A stretch of DNA of 39,469 nucleotides from Gammaproteobacteria bacterium (GCA_020053945.1 JAGVME010000121.1:1-39469), one strand, 5' to 3'; positions 7,594 to 18,970 are shown, counted from the stretch's first letter. The notes: generated by a model from the letters alone, not told the origin. A program made the numbers and translations.

Positions 7594-10464
7594 TTATCCC
7601 ACCCGCCCTTCAGCGCGCCGTGGCTTTGTATGATGCCCGCTCTTCTCCAGAACCGGCCGCAAAAACCGCCCGGTATGCGAATCAGAATAAGCGGCGACAT
7701 CTTCAGGCGTACCCACTACCAGAACTTCACCGCCCTTGTCGCCACCTTCTGGCCCCATATCAATGACCCAGTCGGCGGTCTTGATGACATCGAGATTATG
7801 TTCGATGACAACAATAGTATTACCGTGGTCGCGCAATTGATGCAACACCACCAGCAGTTGTTTGATGTCGTGAAAATGCAGGCCCGTGGTGGGCTCGTCA
7901 AGAATATACAGGGTGGTGCCGGACTCGCGTTTGGAAAGCTCGCGTGACAGTTTGACGCGCTGCGCTTCGCCGCCAGACAGCGTGGTGGCATTTTGCCCGA
8001 GACGCACATACGATAAGCCGACATCCATCAAGGTTTGCAATTTGCGCGCGATCACCGGTACGGCCTTGAAAAACGCCAGTGCGTCTTCAATGGTCATGTC
8101 CAGCACTTCGTGGATATTTTTACCCTTGTAGCGCACCTCCAAAGTTTCGCGGTTGTAACGCTTGCCCTTACAGATGTCACACGGCACATAAATATCCGGT
8201 AAAAAATGCATTTCGACTTTCAGCACGCCATCGCCCTGGCACGCTTCGCAACGCCCGCCCTTGACGTTAAAGCTGAAACGGCCGGGGTTATAACCCCGCG
8301 TGCGCGCCTCTTGCGTGCCGGAAAATAATTCGCGGATCGGCGTGAACAAACCAGTGTAGGTAGCCGGGTTAGAACGCGGCGTACGGCCGATTGGGCTTTG
8401 GTCGATGTTCACTACTTTTTCAAATTGCTCCAGGCCAATGATTTCGGCACACGGTGCAGGCTCATCACTGCTACCGTACAGGGTACGCGCGGCCTGGCGA
8501 TACAGCGTGTCGTTAATCAAGGTGGATTTACCGGAACCTGACACGCCCGTCACGCAGGTCATGAGTCCCACGGGAATATCGACATTCACGTTTTTCAAGT
8601 TGTGGCCGCTGGCGCCACGCAAACGCAACTGGCGCGCCGGGTTGACGGGTACGCGCACCACAGGCACGTCGATTTCACGATAACCTGCCAAATATTGCCC
8701 GGTGAGCGATGCGGGATTAGAGATAATTTCCTGCGGCGTACCCTGCGCGACAATGTGGCCGCCATGCACGCCCGCGCCGGGGCCGATGTCCACCACATAA
8801 TCGGCGAGGCGAATCGCATCTTCGTCGTGCTCGACGATGATCACGGTGTTACCGAGGTCACGCAGATACAACAAGGTTTTGAGCAGGCGTTCGTTGTCAC
8901 GCTGATGCAGGCCTATCGACGGTTCGTCGAGCACATACATGACGCCCACCAGCCCTGCGCCGATTTGGCTGGCGAGCCGGATACGTTGCGCTTCACCGCC
9001 AGACAAAGTGTCGGCGCTACGCTCCAGCGTTAAATAATCCAGCCCGACATTAATCAGGAAATCCAGCCGCTGACCCACCTCTTTGACGATCTTAGCAGCG
9101 ATTTCACCGCGCCAGCCGGGCAACACCAGATCAGTGAAAAATTCATACGCCCGACCCACTGGCATCTTCACCGTCTCGGGTAAAGTTTTTCCGGCCACAA
9201 ACACATGCCGCGCCTCGCGGCGCAAACGCGTACCTTTGCAATCGGGGCAATGCTGGGTACTTAAATATTTAGCCAGTTCTTCACGCACCGCGCCCGATTC
9301 GGTTTCGCGGTAACGGCGCTGCATATTGTTGATGACACCTTCAAACGCATGGCGACGCTTGGCCGCTACACCACGCTCATTAAGATAGGAAAACTCAATC
9401 TCTTCTTCGCCGCTGCCAAACAGCACCAGATCCTGCAACTTTTTCGGCAACTCTTGAAATGGCGTATCAATATCAAATTGATAATGCCCAGCAAGCGCGT
9501 TGATCATCTGAAAATAATAGGCATTTCTACGATCCCAGCCGCGCACTGCGCCACCGGCCAGGCTTAATTCAGGGTGAGATACCACCCGCGCCGGATCGAA
9601 AAATTGTTTGACGCCCAAACCATCGCAGGTCTGACACGCCCCGGCGGGGTTATTGAATGAAAACATGCGTGGCTCAAGCTCAGTGATGCTGTACCCGCAT
9701 TGGGGGCAGGCAAACTTGGCGGAAAACACCACATCGGGCGAGCCTTCGTCATCCATAAATGCCACCCGTGCCAGCCCGTCGGACAGGCGCAACGCGGTTT
9801 CAAACGATTCTGCCAGACGCTGTTGCACATCAGGCCGCACCTTGAAGCGGTCAATCACCACTTCAATGGTGTGTTTCTTACGTAGATCGAGCTTGGGCGC
9901 CTGATCCAGCTCCACCACCGCACCGTTGATACGCGCCCGCACATAACCCTGCGCACGCAGCTCCTCCAGCACCTCCACATGCTCGCCCTTGCGCCCGTCC
10001 ACCACCGGCGCCAGCAGCATCAGGCGCGTTTCCGGGGACATGGCCAGCACATGGTCAACCATCTGGCTGACCGTCTGGGCGTCCAGCACCACGTCATGAT
10101 CCGGGCAACGCGGCTCGCCCGCACGCGCAAACAGCAGGCGCAGATAGTCATAAATTTCCGTCACGGTGCCGACTGTGGAGCGCGGATTGTGCGACGTTGA
10201 CTTCTGTTCGATGGAAATCGCCGGAGATAAGCCCTCAATGTGATCAACGTCGGGCTTTTCCATCACCGACAAAAACTGCCGCGCATAGCTCGACAGCGAC
10301 TCCACGTAGCGCCGCTGGCCTTCCGCATAAATGGTATCAAAGGCCAGCGAAGACTTACCGGAACCTGACAGGCCGGTAATCACAATCAATTTGCCACGCG
10401 GCAAATCAACATCAATGTTTTTCAGATTGTGGGTGCGGGCGCCGCGAATGCGGATCATATCCAT
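7594..10464 (-). CDS. uvrA: Excinuclease ABC subunit A
   Basis: A 956-residue DNA-damage sensor of nucleotide excision repair, which loads UvrB onto lesions. It has two ABC ATPase modules: Walker [15 protein letters not shown] near residue 32 and [14 protein letters not shown] in the second half. Both ABC signatures are present ([16 protein letters not shown] and [15 protein letters not shown]), as are Walker B segments [10 protein letters not shown] and [10 protein letters not shown]. The zinc modules are visible: [24 protein letters not shown] and CEACQGDG...CDICKGKRY. Length is slightly above the ~940 of E. coli. An AGGAA site lies before the ATG. It is divergent from the transporter gene; I found no clear LexA box in the 89-base gap. 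Confidence 0.97.
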
Positions 10465-10553
10465 GCTGATTTCCTAGGGCTTAAGTAACCTGCTAATATA
10501 CGCCTTTTGAGCGTCTTTAGCCAAATTCCAGACCCCCATACTCAGGATATACC

Positions 10554-11966
10554 GTGCGCAAGCCAGCCAATTCCTCCACCCCACAATCCAGCATGAATTC
10601 AGGCGAACGCACCGCCGCACTCTCACTTTCCAGCATTTACGCACTGCGCATGATGGGACTGTTCATGATTTTGCCGGTATTTTCGCTCTACGCCCACGAT
10701 CATCTAGCAGGCGCTACGCCCCTGCTGATCGGACTGGCGATCGGCATTTACGGGTTAGCCAATGCGGTATTCCAGATTCCCTTTGGCATGCTGTCTGACC
10801 GCTTTGGCCGCAAACCGATCATTGTCTTTGGCCTGCTGCTGTTTGCCATCGGCAGCGTGGTAGCGGCGCTCTCGGACACCATCACTGGTGTGATTATCGG
10901 CCGCGCCATCCAGGGCAGTGGCGCGATTGCCGCCGCCGTGATGGCGCTGGCCGCCGACCTGACCCGCGAGGAACATCGCCTGAAAATCATGGCCATGATC
11001 GGCATGACCATCGGCCTGTCGTTCTCCAGCTCGCTGGTGCTGGGGCCACTGTTGAATGACTGGATTGGCGTGCCCGGCATCTTCTGGCTTACCGCCGTGC
11101 TGGCGCTGGCAGGCATTGGCGTGCTGCATTTGTGGGTACCACAGCCCGTCGCCAGCACCTTCCACCGTGACGCCGAGGCCGTGCCTGCACAGTTCACCGA
11201 TATCCTCAAAGACACCCAGTTGCTACGCCTTAACTTCGGCATTTTTGCCTTACACCTGATTCTCACCGCCAGCTTCGTGGTGGTGCCCCTGGCGCTGCGT
11301 GACCATGCCGGCCTGGCGGGCAACCAGCATTGGATAGTGTATCTGGGCGTACAATTACTCTCGATGGCGATAATGGTTCCCTTCATTATCTATGCAGAAA
11401 AATACCGCCACATGAAACAAGTGTTCTTTGGCTGCGTGGTCGCCGTTGCCCTGGCACAGGCCGGACTCGGTTTTGCGCACACCTCAGTCATTGGCATTTC
11501 ATTGTTATTACTGCTATTTTTTATCGCCTTTAATGTGTTGGAGGCCACCTTGCCCTCGCTGATCGCCAAAACCGCACCCTCCGAAAAAAAGGGCACGGCG
11601 ATGGGCGTTTACACTACCACCCAATTCCTCGGCGCTTTCACCGGTGGCATCATGGGTGGCTGGCTGTATGGCGCCGTGGACGTAACCGCCGTGTTTGCGA
11701 TGTGCGCCGGGGTAGCCACCGTGTGGGCAGTGATCGCCGCCAGCATGCGCGAGCCGCGCTACCTGAGCAACCACCTGCTCAAAGTCAGCCAGGCCGATGC
11801 CCCGCTTAGCCCAGAACAAGCCCAGGCACTCGCCCAGCGCCTGCGCCAGGTGCGCGGCGTCGCCGAAGCCACCGTGATTGCGGAAGACGGCATCGCCTAC
11901 CTCAAGGTGGATACCCAAACCCTGGATAATGACGCGCTGGGTGAATTTTCAGTGGCAAAGGCGTAA
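10554..11966 (+). CDS. MFS transporter, YajR-like, with C-terminal soluble domain
   Basis: A 470-residue major facilitator protein with 12 predicted membrane helices. The MFS motif A-like loop GMLSDRFGRKPIIVFG is near residue 78. After the last helix a soluble tail (~residues 400-470, ALAQRLRQVRGVAEATVIAEDGIAYLKVD) looks like the ferredoxin-fold YAM domain described for E. coli YajR. The GTG at 10554 is preferred over the ATG at 10593 because AGGATATACC precedes it. Substrate unknown. A transporter between uvrA and ssb is a common arrangement in Gammaproteobacteria. Confidence 0.85.
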   Translation: MRKPANSSTPQSSMNSGERTAALSLSSIYALRMMGLFMILPVFSLYAHDHLAGATPLLIGLAIGIYGLANAVFQIPFGMLSDRFGRKPIIVFGLLLFAIGSVVAALSDTITGVIIGRAIQGSGAIAAAVMALAADLTREEHRLKIMAMIGMTIGLSFSSSLVLGPLLNDWIGVPGIFWLTAVLALAGIGVLHLWVPQPVASTFHRDAEAVPAQFTDILKDTQLLRLNFGIFALHLILTASFVVVPLALRDHAGLAGNQHWIVYLGVQLLSMAIMVPFIIYAEKYRHMKQVFFGCVVAVALAQAGLGFAHTSVIGISLLLLLFFIAFNVLEATLPSLIAKTAPSEKKGTAMGVYTTTQFLGAFTGGIMGGWLYGAVDVTAVFAMCAGVATVWAVIAASMREPRYLSNHLLKVSQADAPLSPEQAQALAQRLRQVRGVAEATVIAEDGIAYLKVDTQTLDNDALGEFSVAKA

Positions 11967-12070: not shown

Positions 12071-12553
12071 ATGGCAAGAGGCGTTAACAAAGTTATTCTC
12101 ATCGGCAATCTCGGCAAAGACCCCGAGGTGCGTTACATGCCCAGCGGTGGCGCGGTCGCCAACATCACTGTCGCCACCACTGACTCGTGGAAAGACAAGC
12201 AAACCGGCGAAAAGAAAGAAACCACCGAATGGCATAGCGTGGTGTTCTTTAATCGCCTTGCGGAAATTGCCGGCGAGTACTTGAAGAAAGGCTCCAAAGT
12301 CTATATTGAAGGCTCGCTGAAAACTGAAAAGTATCAGGACAAAGCCACCGGCGCGGACCGCTACAGCACCAAGATCATCGCCAATGAAATGCAAATGCTC
12401 GACGGCAAAGGGGGTAGCGCGGATTACTCAGCCGCACAAGGAAGCTCAGCAGCACCCAGCGGCGGCTCCCAGCAACGCTCCAGCGAAAACCGGAGCAGCC
12501 CGGCAGCGCAGGACAATAAGTTTGAGGACTTTGACGACGACATTCCGTTTTAA
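12071..12553 (+). CDS. ssb: Single-stranded DNA-binding protein
   Basis: A 160-residue SSB that coats single-stranded DNA in replication, repair and recombination. The OB fold spans residues 1-~113 ([46 protein letters not shown]). A Gly/Ser/Ala-rich linker and the acidic tip [10 protein letters not shown], which binds partner proteins, follow. The length is normal. A strong terminator lies 16 bases after the stop. The last bases of this gene are repeated at 18692, on the far side of the island. Confidence 0.97.
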
Positions 12554-12568
12554 TTACCACCATCCTAT

Positions 12569-12604
12569 GAACCCTAAAAACGGCAGTCACCGTTTTTAGG
12601 GTTC
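12569..12604. terminator. Bidirectional terminator after ssb
   Basis: A perfect 15-bp stem (GAACCCTAAAAACGG / CCGTTTTTAGGGTTC) with a 6-base loop lies between ssb and a convergent EAL fragment. A/T-rich stem ends give T-runs on both strands. It is duplicated, with a GU-type change at the base, at 18720-18753. Confidence 0.85.
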
Positions 12605-12823
12605 TATCAGCTTCGGTAACTTCTCGGCCACATCCACTCACTGCGGGCAAGGGTCTCGCGAAATAATAACCTTGGCATTCGTCGCAGCCATGCCGCCTGA
12701 GAAAAGCAAACTGTTCTGCTGTCTCAACACCTTCTGCCACCACCTTCACGTCAAGACTGTGCGCCATAGCGATAATGGCCACTACGATGGCAGCATCATC
12801 CGGGGCCGTAGCCACATCAGGCA
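12596..12823 (-). pseudogene. 3' fragment of an EAL-domain gene
   Basis: The minus strand reads PDDAAIVVAIIAMAHSLDVK and onward to GCDECQGYYFARPLP. This is the last ~70 residues of an EAL phosphodiesterase domain, nearly the same as the C-terminus of the intact gene at 18746. Relative to that gene there are four extra bases near 12637, which throw the end out of frame. The 5' side stops abruptly near 12823, where similarity ends. It is a remnant, not a gene. Confidence 0.85.
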
Positions 12824-12944: not shown

Positions 12945-13820
12945 TTACCCAAAGGCTGCGAAATACTCCTGGATATCCCGACAAGCACGGTGATCATTTA
13001 CTGACTTTTTTGTGAATATATCACCTGACAGGAGATCGATCATCTGGGGCATGAAATCAGGATGCCTGGACAATGCATGCAACGTATCCTTTAGCCGTTC
13101 TCCAGTTAGGTGAAGAACCGCTGTACGGATTGCATTATAGGTAAAACTCGCATACGGTACTTCGAAGGGTTGGCAAGTTCTGAACCAATGCTCGATACGA
13201 GATGCTGGCACGCCCAAGAGTCGTGTACCCAGTCGCCATGCACGAAGGCTAAATTCGACATCCTCAAAACCGTAATGTCTCATTGTATCGAAGCCGCCAA
13301 TGTTTTCAAATAGTTCACGTGACAACGCCATACATCCACCCGGAATAATCCCAATTTCTGTCGGATACTTATTTTGAACTGGGTTCCATTCATATCGTAA
13401 CTCTCGACCAACAAGCCTTGCGCCACAACCGATGTAGTCGGGTTCATTTCTGTCTCGGACAGCGGGTCCGACGATATTTTGTTGGCCCGTTTCGATAACA
13501 TCCACAAGGCTTGCAAGCCATCCGGAATGCACAAGGCAATGAGCGTCAAGGAATACCAGGAAAGGCTGTTTAGCGATCGATGCGCCGACATTACGTGCCC
13601 CGGAAATGCCGAGTCGTTTCTGTGTCACTAGCACGATGTTCATAGGTGATGTATTAACATTATTCGGTAATTCGTCGCAACACCCATCTATACTTCCGTC
13701 GTCGACTACTACAATTTCTTGTGGTAAATCAGTTGTCGCGCCTATTGAATTAATGGTTTCCGCTAACGATTTTCCCTCGTTGAGCGCAGAAATTACAATT
13801 GTTACTGGAAGACGGTTCAC
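12945..13820 (-). CDS. Family 2 glycosyltransferase resembling polypeptide GalNAc-transferases
   Basis: A 291-residue GT-A fold enzyme without a signal peptide or membrane helix. Residues 1-~100 carry the nucleotide-sugar fold: TIVISALNEGKSLAETINS, then EIVVVDDGSIDG, then GISGARNVGA. The metal site reads FLDAHC (D92, H94), the DxH form typical of polypeptide GalNAc-transferases rather than the usual DxD. Further on, GGFDTMRHYGFEDVEFSLRAWRLG (~175-198) parallels the WGGEN-E-S-R-W block of those enzymes. The GTG start overlaps the previous gene by four bases (GTGA), so translation is probably coupled. It is the last gene of the island operon. Donor and acceptor are unknown; a protein or peptide acceptor is inferred from motif style only. 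Confidence 0.75.
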   Translation of the reverse strand: MNRLPVTIVISALNEGKSLAETINSIGATTDLPQEIVVVDDGSIDGCCDELPNNVNTSPMNIVLVTQKRLGISGARNVGASIAKQPFLVFLDAHCLVHSGWLASLVDVIETGQQNIVGPAVRDRNEPDYIGCGARLVGRELRYEWNPVQNKYPTEIGIIPGGCMALSRELFENIGGFDTMRHYGFEDVEFSLRAWRLGTRLLGVPASRIEHWFRTCQPFEVPYASFTYNAIRTAVLHLTGERLKDTLHALSRHPDFMPQMIDLLSGDIFTKKSVNDHRACRDIQEYFAAFG

Positions 13821-14569
13821 CGGAGATCGGCCGGCAATAAATGAGCAATGTCGGATGGGCTACAGCCCCGCCCCCAGAATTGAACGCACGGCCAGTTCAC
13901 CAGAGATTCGGTTCCGCTTTCGATCCATGTAAAACAATATTTCATGTATTGAAATGCGTATGCGCCTAATATACTAAACTCAGAAAATTGATCCGGCCGT
14001 TGAGCAAGAATTAAATCACTCATTTTTAGACCATGACGAATCATGACGAACTGCCGTAGTGCCACGTAAATGCCTCGCGGATATACGGCTGGTAAAGTGA
14101 CCATAAATTCCTTATCGGTATCTATTCCCAAAACATTGGGTATCGAATTTCTCCAGCCATCGATAATTGGTCGTATACTCCTGTTTCGATAGATATGAAT
14201 AGGTTTTTCTTCACGGAACAGATCTTCCCATACGAGAGTGTGCCGAACGAATACACAGTCTGAGTCCAAATGAATAAGGTAGTCTGCGTCGGAGATCTCA
14301 TCAGCGTAAAGCTTGCTTATCTGTTGGCCTAAGTAATCATCAATGTAGTCTTCGCAGATCACTAGTCGTAAGGGCAGTCCATTGGGTACCAGCGATTCTT
14401 TCCATCGATCAGCGCTTGATTCTGGAATGATTAGTAGTACTTGTCTGTATCCTCGCAAGAAAGCGTGAATAGACGCTAACGCTAACCGCAGCCAATTAAA
14501 GTCGCGAAAGTAGCTACGAATAACTACATCAATGCATGGTATCATCCAACGTGTGTCATTCAGCACCAC
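13817..14569 (-). CDS. Probable DUF6492-type glycosyltransferase-like protein
   Basis: A 250-residue protein with a DxD motif (LIHLDSDCVFVR, D102 and D104). It follows an N-terminal DVVIRSYFRDFNWLRLALASI segment and a DYIDDYLGQQISKLYADEI segment, a pattern I associate with the DUF6492 glycosyltransferase-like family. It has no membrane segments. It starts with GTG at 14569, inside the end of the preceding gene (14-base overlap), with AGAGGTG as the likely ribosome binding site. It ends in a 4-base overlap with the GalNAc-transferase-like gene. Codon use looks less GC-rich than that of flanking core genes. Substrate unknown. Confidence 0.65.
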   Translation of the reverse strand: MVLNDTRWMIPCIDVVIRSYFRDFNWLRLALASIHAFLRGYRQVLLIIPESSADRWKESLVPNGLPLRLVICEDYIDDYLGQQISKLYADEISDADYLIHLDSDCVFVRHTLVWEDLFREEKPIHIYRNRSIRPIIDGWRNSIPNVLGIDTDKEFMVTLPAVYPRGIYVALRQFVMIRHGLKMSDLILAQRPDQFSEFSILGAYAFQYMKYCFTWIESGTESLVNWPCVQFWGRGCSPSDIAHLLPADLR

Positions 14570-15326
14570 CTCTAAAATCTACCCCACGGATCTTTGGCCC
14601 CGGTGTTCCTCCAATGCCTCCCGGTGGCAGTGTCGCTACCCAATCAATTAATCCCGGTAATAGAAAAACCTCATCAATTCGATCTTTCCAAAAATTCTGG
14701 ATTGCAGCTGACAGTCCCCAGTGGTAAAGGGATAGTTGCGATATTTGGCTTGGTTCAATCGACAAAGATAGCAGGTCACCAATACGCCGTTCTGCCAATC
14801 CAAGCCGTTTTAGACCTTCCACTGGATGTGCAGCGAAGTGCACAAAGTTAGCCCTTTCGGTAATGACGTGCTCGCCAGAGGGTTCAAAACCCGCTTGTGT
14901 CAGAATATGTGCCAATAGTGCTGAATCGGCACGGGCAAGATATATCATTGATTGCACGGATTCTTTATTCATCGTTTCAAACAGCTTTTTTGTTAAGACG
15001 GCCACGAGCCCGACATTGGTGACGTTCTGTGGACTTGCGAGAACAGGGGTGAGAAAAGCACGGTTACCTTCGCCAATAACAGCGATGGCAAGCCCTTCAA
15101 TCACTTGCGCTCCTACTCCGCGAGGCGGCCAAGGTCTGTCGGATACTGCCGCGACGAAAATGGTTCTTGCCGAGCATGTCAGCGGTTCTATGATTTCGCG
15201 CATTACGTGAGGGGCGCCAATTTCGCGAAAGAATTTTGCCACCACCGCTTTCATGTCCGTCGAAAACTCAGTGATGATTTCAAACCGTATGAACTCATTT
15301 CTTGACGAGCAGTTATCTATATGCAT
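14556..15326 (-). CDS. Acetyltransferase-like (GNAT-like) protein with Pro/Gly tail
   Basis: A 256-residue protein I cannot assign firmly. Residues ~55-165 look like a GNAT fold: strand-helix NVGLVAVLTKKLFETMN, then MIYLARADSALLAHILTQAGFEPSGEHV, resembling the late GNAT motif where an (F/Y)-x-P-x-G-E segment follows a helix. The end (231-256) is different in kind: ATLPPGGIGGTPGPKIRGVD then FRGGAE, a flexible Pro/Gly tail. The ATG at 15326 has a strong AGAGGAAA site. It sits between a prolyl-hydroxylase-like gene and two glycosyltransferase genes and overlaps the next gene. The tail could therefore be the substrate of its neighbours (inference). Confidence 0.55.
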   Translation of the reverse strand: MHIDNCSSRNEFIRFEIITEFSTDMKAVVAKFFREIGAPHVMREIIEPLTCSARTIFVAAVSDRPWPPRGVGAQVIEGLAIAVIGEGNRAFLTPVLASPQNVTNVGLVAVLTKKLFETMNKESVQSMIYLARADSALLAHILTQAGFEPSGEHVITERANFVHFAAHPVEGLKRLGLAERRIGDLLSLSIEPSQISQLSLYHWGLSAAIQNFWKDRIDEVFLLPGLIDWVATLPPGGIGGTPGPKIRGVDFRGGAE

Positions 15327-15349
15327 GTTATTTTTCCTCTAGGTTACTA

Positions 15350-15973
15350 TCATTGTTTCAAAAACCAGCACAGAATCGCATAGCGAACACCTTCGTGAAT
15401 CGTGAGGACCTCATGTAAACATTTAGATTTGAAGGCAACTAAAGTGCCTACTTGTGGTATCACGATCTGCCGCCCACTCAAGCCAGGACATGACGGGTCA
15501 TAAACGGCAAGAGCACCCCCATCGAACGAGGGAGTTTCAGTAGTCGCCTCACGCCCATTGAGATAGAGGACAATTGTTAGCACCCGGTCAGTCACACATT
15601 GTGGGTCACTCATGTGGGTCGCTATGTCTTGATGAAGTCGAAAAAAAGCTCCGCGCCGGTAGCTCACAAAATAAGGACCGTTGGTAACACAAAACGGTAA
15701 ATTAAAGCATTCGAGAAGATCCTCTTGCAGATGCAATATGTGCCCGAGGACGTAATCAAACATTGCTTGTGGCACTTGATGGACACTACAAATCCGGGTA
15801 TCAAGATCTAAAGTTTCAATCCCATTTCTAAGGATCAAACCGTCTGTGTGTATTGATGTCTGCATGCATGCAATGATTCGCCCACATGCCTCTGGCGTGA
15901 GCACACTGTCCCTCCGCTGGAGAGTCGGTATCGAGTACTCGATCGTAGAAGGTTGGTCAAAAAACAGATTCAC
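15350..15973 (-). CDS. 2-oxoglutarate/Fe(II) dioxygenase, prolyl-4-hydroxylase-like
   Basis: A 207-residue double-stranded beta-helix dioxygenase. The iron ligands are visible: H114 and D116 in FRLHQDIATH, and H187 in KCLHEVLTIHEG. R197 in GVRYAILCWF is the 2-oxoglutarate anchor. The ...DRVLTIVLYLNG... and FDGGALAVYD strands are typical of the P4H class, which hydroxylates prolines in proteins or peptides using oxygen and 2-oxoglutarate. The GTG at 15973 is preceded by GAGG, with an in-frame stop just upstream, so the start is well fixed. It is the first gene of a four-gene, tightly spaced minus-strand operon. Confidence 0.85.
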   Translation of the reverse strand: MNLFFDQPSTIEYSIPTLQRRDSVLTPEACGRIIACMQTSIHTDGLILRNGIETLDLDTRICSVHQVPQAMFDYVLGHILHLQEDLLECFNLPFCVTNGPYFVSYRRGAFFRLHQDIATHMSDPQCVTDRVLTIVLYLNGREATTETPSFDGGALAVYDPSCPGLSGRQIVIPQVGTLVAFKSKCLHEVLTIHEGVRYAILCWFLKQ

Positions 15974-16208: not shown

Positions 16209-18044
16209 TTACTCAATCAATCCCTCGAACTTGCTGTAATGTGTGCCATGTCGCGTATTGTACCCTTTAACGACCGCAGCTTTGAGGCGAGTGAGATCGA
16301 TGGCATCACTGTTCGGCTGGCTAGCCGCATGTCCGTAGTTCCACGCAATTACGTCGATGTAAACCGGCAGTTTGAGTCGTTTACCATTCAGAGTCTCTAG
16401 AAGTGCATGGGCAAGCCCTGGGTAGGGGGTGGCGCGATCACTGAGCCATTGTCGGAGATCGGTCTCGTTCACACTAAAATCAATCCGCGCCGCTCGGAGT
16501 GCTAGGATGGTGTCCTGCGTCGTGATCTGTTTGATCGACAATGAGCGGGTGGACAGTCCCGCCGGAATCACAATATCCAAGATACCTCCATTAGCGCTGC
16601 CCTTGAAGGCAAACTGCTGTTTGATACACCCGAGAATGGTGGGATCATTCCGACCCTCGCATCCGATGCCCACCGGATCGACCGCGACCACGTCGTAGAG
16701 GTGACCATCAGTCAAGTTGAGGGTGAACGGTGCGTCATTGGGGTCGGGACAGAAGCCCGTTTCAGAGTACATAGCATCAATGGGCGCATTGGAGTCCTTC
16801 GTCCCCTCAGTAGCATCGCCTACCCAGTAGTACAGCCGACGTTGATCAGGATCGCAATTGAACAGATTGACCTGGCGCAAGCCATCAACGGGCTTTTGGG
16901 GGGCGGGTTGCCCTGATCCAGAAGCTGGTGCTTGGTCGGTAACGGCGAAGACTAATAGCCGGGTTCCACGCGTGCGCCCAAGGGCGTCAGATAAGATCTC
17001 AGTTAAAACTAAGTCACTTCGCCCATCCCCGGTAACATCGGCCAAATAGAAGGCACCCCAACCTGTGGTGTCGGCTGAGCGCCGTATATTGCGCCAGTTG
17101 AACGGTGTTGCGTTGATGAATTTATCGCCATTTGACAAGGAAGCAAGAACCTCTGCAGGTTGGGGTACATCTGAAGACATCCCCTTAACCAACAACACAT
17201 CGGTTTTTCCGTCAGCGTTGAGGTCACCTACCAAGCAGCGCTCATTATCGATGCAGAAGAATCCGTGACCGTATCGAACGGTTCCAAATTTTGTGCCATT
17301 CGATGGGGAAATCAAGACATTACCTTTTTCCCCTCCATTAGCCACGGGCTTGAACAGCAAAATATCGCCCTTACGATCACCGTCGACATCACCAACGTCA
17401 CACAACTCACCGCGAATGCAGAAGAAATTATGCCAAATGCCATTAGCCCCAAAGCGATTTCCCTCGGACAATGAAGCCCAGACCAAGCCCGTAATGGGTG
17501 TAAAGGCAACTAAATCGGCCTTACCGTCGCCGTTAAGGTCGGTAACCTTGCAAACCTGTTCCGTAATACAAAAACCGTCGTTCCAGACTGGCTGAACAGT
17601 GTATTGGAAGTTGGCCCCATTCGACAACGCCACATAGACATCGGCCGATCCGGCAGTTTTGCCCTCACCGTGTTTAAATACAATCAAGTCTGCCTTTCGA
17701 TCGGCATTGACATCGGCCATTGCAAACAAAAGCGTGAGGGTTGTCGAAGCTGCATCAATGGGTAGGCCACTCGCCCAAAGCTTAGGTACTCCGAACGCTT
17801 GCCCGTTGGATAACGCCACATGCGCCGTACCGCGGAACTGGTTGTAGTCGACCAAGTCGGCTTTACCGTCACCATTGACATCGGCAAACTGAAAGTACGA
17901 CCCAAGATTAGTCGGAAAGGGCAATTCCAGCCAGGAACGTGGTTCCCCGAAATGCAATGGTGCAGCCAGTGCCACAGGAGGAATCAGCGTCAAAAGGATA
18001 GCCACTGCCACTAGCGTTAATCGTCTAATGAAGATATCCAACAT
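16209..18044 (-). CDS. Secreted FG-GAP/VCBS-repeat protein with novel C-terminal domain
   Basis: A protein of about 611 residues. The signal peptide (RRLTLVAVAILLTLIPPVALAAP) is followed by about seven repeats carrying calcium-binding-like cores: DVNGDGKADLV, DVNADRKADLI, DLNGDGKADLV, DVDGDRKGDIL, DLNADGKTDVL, DVTGDGRSDLV. This is the FG-GAP/VCBS propeller pattern, residues ~50-370. A separate C-terminal region (~395-611) starts VNLFNCDPDQRRLYYWVGD and has four or more cysteines; I do not recognise it. It is probably exported. The ATG at 18044 was chosen; a GTG at 18053 is an alternative. A 235-base gap separates it from the dioxygenase operon downstream, so it may be a separate unit. Confidence 0.8.
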   Translation of the reverse strand: MLDIFIRRLTLVAVAILLTLIPPVALAAPLHFGEPRSWLELPFPTNLGSYFQFADVNGDGKADLVDYNQFRGTAHVALSNGQAFGVPKLWASGLPIDAASTTLTLLFAMADVNADRKADLIVFKHGEGKTAGSADVYVALSNGANFQYTVQPVWNDGFCITEQVCKVTDLNGDGKADLVAFTPITGLVWASLSEGNRFGANGIWHNFFCIRGELCDVGDVDGDRKGDILLFKPVANGGEKGNVLISPSNGTKFGTVRYGHGFFCIDNERCLVGDLNADGKTDVLLVKGMSSDVPQPAEVLASLSNGDKFINATPFNWRNIRRSADTTGWGAFYLADVTGDGRSDLVLTEILSDALGRTRGTRLLVFAVTDQAPASGSGQPAPQKPVDGLRQVNLFNCDPDQRRLYYWVGDATEGTKDSNAPIDAMYSETGFCPDPNDAPFTLNLTDGHLYDVVAVDPVGIGCEGRNDPTILGCIKQQFAFKGSANGGILDIVIPAGLSTRSLSIKQITTQDTILALRAARIDFSVNETDLRQWLSDRATPYPGLAHALLETLNGKRLKLPVYIDVIAWNYGHAASQPNSDAIDLTRLKAAVVKGYNTRHGTHYSKFEGLIE

Positions 18045-18110
18045 AGGAATCACCGTTAATTTATCGTAACTAGAAGAGTCAGGACATTTATCATTGATAT
18101 CAATAAAAAT

Positions 18111-18691: not shown

Positions 18692-18970
18692 CCGTTTTAA
18701 TTACTACAACCCATTCTATGACCCTAAAAACGGCAGTCACCGTTTTTAGGGTTCTATCAGCTTCGGTAACTTCTCGGCCACATCCAGCGCTGGCAATGGC
18801 CTGCTGAAATAGTAGCCCTGACATTCATCACAGCCATGCTGTTTGAGGAAATCATACTGCTCTACGGTTTCAACGCCTTCCGCCACCACCTTCACATCCA
18901 GGCTGTGCGCCATGGCGATGATAGCCACCACAATGGCGGCGTCATCCGGGTCGGTGGCGACATCACGGAC
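18692..18970. repeat. Direct repeat, copy B, flanking the island
   Basis: It carries the same order as 12545-12823: the last nine bases of ssb (CCGTTTTAA), the terminator, then the 3' end of the EAL gene, here intact. Having an ssb tail with no ssb in front of it shows that this copy was separated from a real ssb/EAL junction by the inserted DNA. Confidence 0.8.
18720..18753. terminator. Terminator of the GGDEF-EAL gene (second copy)
   Basis: The ACCCTAAAAACGG / CCGTTTTTAGGGT stem overlaps the stop codon of the GGDEF-EAL gene. It is identical to the post-ssb terminator except for the outermost pairs. Confidence 0.8.

Follow-up and report, generated by a model that had tools for sequence, protein, structure and literature searches.

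A conserved four-gene bacterial operon suggests a possible hydroxylation and glycosylation system with a built-in protein tail

Genes of the operon and the surrounding island

The window, meaning here the whole stretch of 39,469 nucleotides that was analyzed, comes from a Gammaproteobacteria bacterium and carries four minus-strand genes within 15973-12945, in the order 2OG oxygenase, GNAT-fold protein, DUF6492 protein, and family-2 glycosyltransferase (GT2) (Table 1). All four open reading frames were found where an earlier reading, made from the sequence alone, had placed four packed genes. Of the two overlaps described there, that of 4 bases (13817-13820) is present, and that of 14 bases holds only if the DUF6492 gene starts at the GTG at 14569. 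Homologues of this gene start near an in-frame ATG at 14545, and a start at that codon leaves a gap of about 10 bases instead.

Table 1. Features of the operon and its flanks, in window coordinates
Feature	Position	Strand	Residues and remarks
2OG-Fe(II) oxygenase, P4H superfamily, 207 aa	15350..15973	-	H114, D116, H187, R197
GNAT-fold protein with Pro/Gly C-terminal tail, 256 aa	14556..15326	-	Proposed carrier and substrate
Tail core LPPGGIGGTPGP of the GNAT-fold protein	14595..14630	-	Residues 233-244; X-Pro-Gly at P235 and P242; T241 is the Thr of TPGP
Loop RPWPPxGxG of the GNAT-like domain	15105..15137	-	Residues 64-74; near-invariant, weakly modelled
DUF6492 protein	13817..14569	-	HxDxD = H100, D102, D104; start possibly ATG at 14545
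Family-2 glycosyltransferase like polypeptide GalNAc-transferases, 291 aa	12945..13820	-	No lectin domain; DxH at 92-94
Left flank, duplicated 3' end of GGDEF-EAL gene	12545..12819	-	
Right flank, 3' end of intact GGDEF-EAL gene	18692..18965	-	

The operon and a secreted FG-GAP protein encoded upstream of it lie between the two copies of the GGDEF-EAL 3' end, and together they form an island. The view of this segment as an island is borne out by a genome of the same genus, in which ssb is followed directly by the EAL gene. In a sister genome, the same site holds a different and unrelated insert of about 8.8 kb, encoding a metallo-beta-lactamase-fold protein, a DNA ligase, and an Lhr-type helicase. 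Because one genome of the genus has an empty site and another a different insert, the ssb/GGDEF-EAL interval is taken as an insertion hotspot (the window, L085, and L086). The FG-GAP repeat protein (16209-18053) was not found in the loci that carry the operon elsewhere; it was considered as a substrate and rejected, since the homologous loci have only 2OG, GNAT, and GT genes in common. An anti-phage role was also considered and is unsupported, as a defense-system library returned only a generic 2OG match.

Enzyme families of the encoded proteins

The first protein matches Pfam 2OG-FeII_Oxy_3 (PF13640; E 3e-15) and has the HxD...H iron site and the Arg for 2-oxoglutarate. The P4H-type catalytic residues had been assigned correctly, as H114-x-D116, H187, and R197, and they are invariant among five homologues. 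In a profile comparison with solved structures, the oxygenase matched the PKHD-type PiuC at 1e-8, a Dictyostelium P4H at 2e-4, and an algal P4H at 0.009. As the best of these matches is a PKHD-type enzyme, proline is not fixed as the substrate of the window oxygenase, which weighs against the explanation favored below.

For the second protein, no Pfam match at E<1 was found, but the best Foldseek matches of its AlphaFold model are GNAT acetyltransferases (E 2e-5), in support of the GNAT-like label that it had been given. The CoA pyrophosphate-binding signature Q/RxxGxG/A is absent across the family, with TNxG[LM]x in its place, and this degeneracy was counted in favor of a carrier role for the GNAT-fold protein. 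TNxG, K113, and H202 are further invariant residues. The RPWPPxGxG loop is near-invariant family-wide yet weakly modelled by AlphaFold, and could be a second target or a loop of the active site. Since this loop and the other invariant residues could form an active site, the GNAT-like protein may itself be an enzyme.

The third protein belongs to DUF6492 (Pfam E 4e-9) and carries an invariant H-x-D-x-D; a profile search found no solved relative. Of its earlier description as a DxD glycosyltransferase-like protein, the motif stands, in the form HxDxD, and is the basis for calling the protein a putative glycosyltransferase.

The fourth protein matches a family-2 glycosyltransferase plus Glyco_transf_7C in Pfam. 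The DxH and the GalNAc-transferase-like blocks ascribed to it are confirmed: the DAH (92-94) and EHWFR align to GALNT blocks and are kept in homologues, and the alignment to GALNT enzymes (residues 4-285) spans DxH, a GG block, E-[DN]-x-E-x-S-x-R-x-W, and a distal H-x-F-R. The protein therefore shows a GT-A catalytic domain with DxH and the distal metal-binding His. Among solved structures, the GT2 alone matched polypeptide GalNAc-transferases 12, 10, 4, and 2 best (E 3e-24 to 3e-20; up to residues 4-286), compared with 2e-11 for chondroitin synthase and 2e-4 or worse for other GT2 enzymes. Two control GT2s from the same genome behaved differently, with chondroitin synthase or generic enzymes as best matches and GalNAc-transferases reached at only 1e-4 and 6e-3. 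The sequence-only reading had considered that the transferases might fall into polysaccharide-synthesis clades; for the GT2, checked against a reference set consisting of the PDB only, the grouping is with polypeptide GalNAc-transferases. By sequence comparison within that set, the window GT2 is closer to these than to other GT2 enzymes. No match to a C-terminal ricin-type lectin domain was found in this protein, which ends at 291 aa, and for this reason it is called GALNT-like here and not filed in GT27. Its best NCBIfam match, MftF, scores 84 bits, the cut-off of that model being 280 bits.

Homologous operons, fusion relatives, and conservation of the tail

A total of 1,768 sampled genomes was searched. 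The GNAT-like protein is rare, occurring in 0 of 397 other genomes drawn from the phylum of the window. An unrelated actinobacterium (L062: 2OG 7813-8670, GNAT 8667-9425, DUF6492 9429-10163, GT2 10079-11050) has all four genes, arranged as in the window and with 35-40% identity, and its GNAT-like protein bears the tail LPPAGVPPGTPGPSFGPQTDIEQ. A sample from the Streptomyces order yielded standalone GNAT-like genes, of which six, in as many genomes, lie in the arrangement 2OG-GNAT-GT2, with identities to the window genes of about 35, 41, and 37%, respectively. A DUF6492 gene was sought elsewhere in the Streptomyces-order genomes and not found, which weighs against the explanation favored below. 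In a further locus, L058, the order is GNAT-DUF6492-2OG and the tail is CLPPGGPPALEQ. The window groups with the Streptomyces-order forms in the tree of the GNAT-like protein (100/98) and with L062 in the tree of DUF6492 (100/98). The check proposed in the sequence-only reading, a search for the gene set in other genomes and for conservation of the tail, thus returned the complete set in L062 and a tail in every homologous operon found.

The PPGGIGGTPGP tail exists as described in that reading, and it is conserved. The six Streptomyces-order GNAT-like proteins end in [LV]LPGLIDx[VI]AT[LS]PP[GA]GVPPGTPGP plus three variable residues, and the segment LPP[GA]GVPPGTPGP is carried by L062 as well as by all six. 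P235 and G237, of the P-[GA]-G motif, are invariant in 21 aligned family members, and this conservation holds although the models show disorder there: the last 24 residues of the window protein, containing most of PPGGIGGTPGP, are predicted to be disordered. The window tail reads GGTPGPK where the other tails read PGTPGP, and it is one Pro short in the VPPG segment, which weighs against the tail as substrate. Among the six Streptomyces-order genes, 8 of 13 codons of the tail core are variable and the residue is changed in only 2, compared with 70 of 135 variable codons that alter the residue in the GNAT-like body; the last three tail residues all vary. This codon pattern supports selection on the tail, within a small sample of six genes that falls short of proof.

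The motif TPGP is present in 8/8 loci with a GALNT-like gene and in 0/16 without one, the latter being 14 fusions, L013, and L058. Because the eight loci are close kin in one clade, the association amounts to about one evolutionary event, which weighs against the favored explanation. The peptide PGPTPGPR is a good to ideal acceptor for a snail ppGalNAcT (PMC6994419), and GalNAc-T4 uses TTPGP-containing glycopeptides but not the naked peptide (PMC5716993). The Streptomyces-order loci have no genes in common except 2OG, GNAT, and GT; the module therefore appears to move as a unit of its own, and with no other gene accompanying it, the tail is the sole candidate substrate that it carries.

Most of the relatives of the GNAT-like protein are more distant and join two of the module's components in one polypeptide. 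A single-sequence scan of genome contigs found no relative, and the phage, plasmid, and viral collections yielded nothing but a homologue (32%) on a plasmid of Eleftheria terrae, where it makes up the N-terminal half of an annotated 2OG-Fe(II) oxygenase. A profile built from two sequences added a further 14 loci, in Actinomycetota, Acidobacteriota, Myxococcota, Pseudomonadota, and Planctomycetota. With the exception of L013, each of these encodes a single protein in which a near-invariant RGGHxxKPGGVPxGTGR segment lies between the GNAT-like domain and a C-terminal 2OG domain, a fusion that is covered by no NCBIfam model. The linker, KPGGVPxGTGR, keeps P-[GA]-G at the tail position; it is disordered in the model (residues 219-256, pLDDT below 50) and nearly invariant in sequence. 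The best structural matches of the C-terminal domain are PHD2, a Dictyostelium prolyl hydroxylase, and the P4H of P. putida. In L013 (9962-11460, from an Acidimicrobiaceae MAG), two genes whose stop and start codons overlap take the place of the fusion, and the GNAT part has a tail of its own, SPPGGAPVHIRPEEEEE....

In nearly every such locus the fused gene is surrounded by the same partners. The resulting seven-gene cluster (L002:7753-15461 and L003-L016), which has no given name and is common to five phyla, encodes an AspH-type hydroxylase, a polysaccharide pyruvyl transferase-like protein, DUF6492, DUF1826, a GT-B-like protein, the GNAT-linker-2OG fusion, and a sulfotransferase. No description of this combination was found in the open-licence literature. 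The sulfotransferase bears a long C-terminal extension whose motifs (HVD...HW) suggest that it, too, may be a 2OG oxygenase. On the Eleftheria plasmid, a long CG-rich repeat (L002:15425-16042) that reads as His-Pro or Val-Arg repeats adjoins the sulfotransferase gene.

Proposed tail modification, alternatives, and known systems

The observed gene set and order, the conservation and predicted disorder of the tail, the family relationships of the enzymes, and the co-occurrence of TPGP with the GT2 are brought together by an explanation toward which we lean modestly: the operon would be a self-contained protein-tail modification module in which the tail is hydroxylated and O-glycosylated as a dedicated substrate. 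The earlier proposal, that this tail or a small peptide is hydroxylated and glycosylated, is partly supported; we infer the modification itself, which residues and sugars it involves, the sequence of steps, and whether the tail is retained or released. The GNAT-fold protein would act as carrier and offer its flexible C-terminal tail LPPGGIGGTPGP. X-Pro-Gly is what P4H enzymes use, and the 2OG oxygenase would hydroxylate at least one proline in this context (P235 and/or P242). The GALNT-like GT2 would glycosylate the Thr of TPGP, or else hydroxyproline, and DUF6492 would attach an additional sugar or the hydroxyproline-linked one. The module lacks a protease and an exporter, which weighs against this explanation. 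Because it spreads between phyla without another candidate substrate, the module most likely brings its own, for which the tail is the only candidate, and the fusion relatives, in which the equivalent segment is tethered to a domain with a prolyl-hydroxylase fold, also favor the tail as substrate. In the seven-gene relatives, that segment could be modified further by sulfation, pyruvylation, and more hydroxylation. The broader claim, an undescribed and widespread bacterial system in which a GalNAc-transferase-like enzyme and a dedicated proline hydroxylase act on the conserved PPGG(V/I)..TPGP tail of a GNAT-derived carrier, is held more tentatively, as a reasonable possibility.

The strongest alternative to the tail as substrate is that it is a docking or tethering motif holding the oxygenase and the transferases, the real substrate being another protein or a universal cell component. 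Disordered conserved segments often serve as binding motifs, the segment of the fusion relatives joins two enzyme-like domains, and the AspH-type, sulfotransferase, and pyruvyl transferase enzymes of the seven-gene cluster could share a common target. However, TPGP, a known acceptor motif, tracks the GALNT-like gene, X-Pro-Gly fits P4H usage, and the modules bring no other candidate substrate; docking is considered unlikely. It is also quite unlikely that the GNAT-like protein works as an acyl- or aminoacyltransferase that helps to build a glycosylated hydroxy-amino acid or small peptide, with the tail as a linker or regulatory element. The GNAT fold with its invariant RPWPPxGxG, TNxG, K113, and H202 and the resemblance of the seven-gene cluster to a biosynthetic gene cluster would fit such an activity, but every member has a degenerate pyrophosphate-binding signature, the four-gene form has no ligase or carrier, and it would be left unexplained why the tail is selectively conserved. 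A horizontally acquired island with two genes resembling glycosyltransferases might also suggest an ordinary surface-polysaccharide or O-antigen locus. Conservation of the tail across phyla, the absence of a flippase, polymerase, or export gene from the homologous modules, and a GT2 that is GALNT-like, whereas the other GT2s of the genome best match chondroitin synthase or generic enzymes, make this origin highly improbable.

Altogether, the conserved operon suggests that bacteria have a tail hydroxylation and glycosylation system of their own, with its substrate built in; the module is undescribed in the open-licence literature, Pfam, NCBIfam, PHROGs, and PADLOC. If true, it would be a compact, portable hydroxylate-and-glycosylate system, would bear on the origin of hydroxyproline-linked and mucin-type glycosylation, and could provide a simple tool for producing glycosylated protein tails. 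The work also points to the seven-gene cluster that five phyla have in common.

Several known systems share parts of this arrangement. Mycofactocin MftF is likewise a GT2 in a peptide-derived pathway, but the window GT2 lies far below its cut-off and the operon has no mycofactocin genes. In NHLP/Nif11 (proteusin-type) RiPP precursors, a short C-terminal peptide, the target of partner enzymes, comes after an enzyme-derived folded N-terminal region (PMC2887384). The module differs from these in its GNAT-derived leader of about 230 aa, in having no peptidase or exporter, and in a tail core that is highly conserved instead of hypervariable after a Gly-Gly cleavage motif. The likeness to prolyl 4-hydroxylases (PHD2/EGLN, P. 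putida P4H, and collagen P4H) consists of the fold of the fused relative and of HxD...H...R in the window enzyme; identity is low, and the closest sequence match is PKHD-type (PiuC/YbiX) and not P4H proper. The polypeptide GalNAc-transferases of mucin-type O-glycosylation (CAZy GT27) share their catalytic blocks with the GT2, and their acceptor peptides contain TPGP as does the tail; unlike them, the window GT2 is bacterial, cytoplasmic, divergent in sequence, and without a lectin domain. The Skp1 pathway of Dictyostelium (PhyA, Gnt1, PgtA, and AgtA) also combines a cytoplasmic P4H-type oxygenase and sugar-adding enzymes with a dedicated protein, and Gnt1 is distantly related to ppGalNAc-transferases. 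In Skp1, hydroxyproline is the site of sugar attachment (PMC3515798). No homologues of Skp1, PgtA, or AgtA are among the operon proteins and the proposed substrate is a GNAT-fold protein, so that the likeness is a functional analogy only. If true, the module would be the bacterial equivalent of both hydroxyproline-linked and mucin-type glycosylation and would bring its substrate with it.
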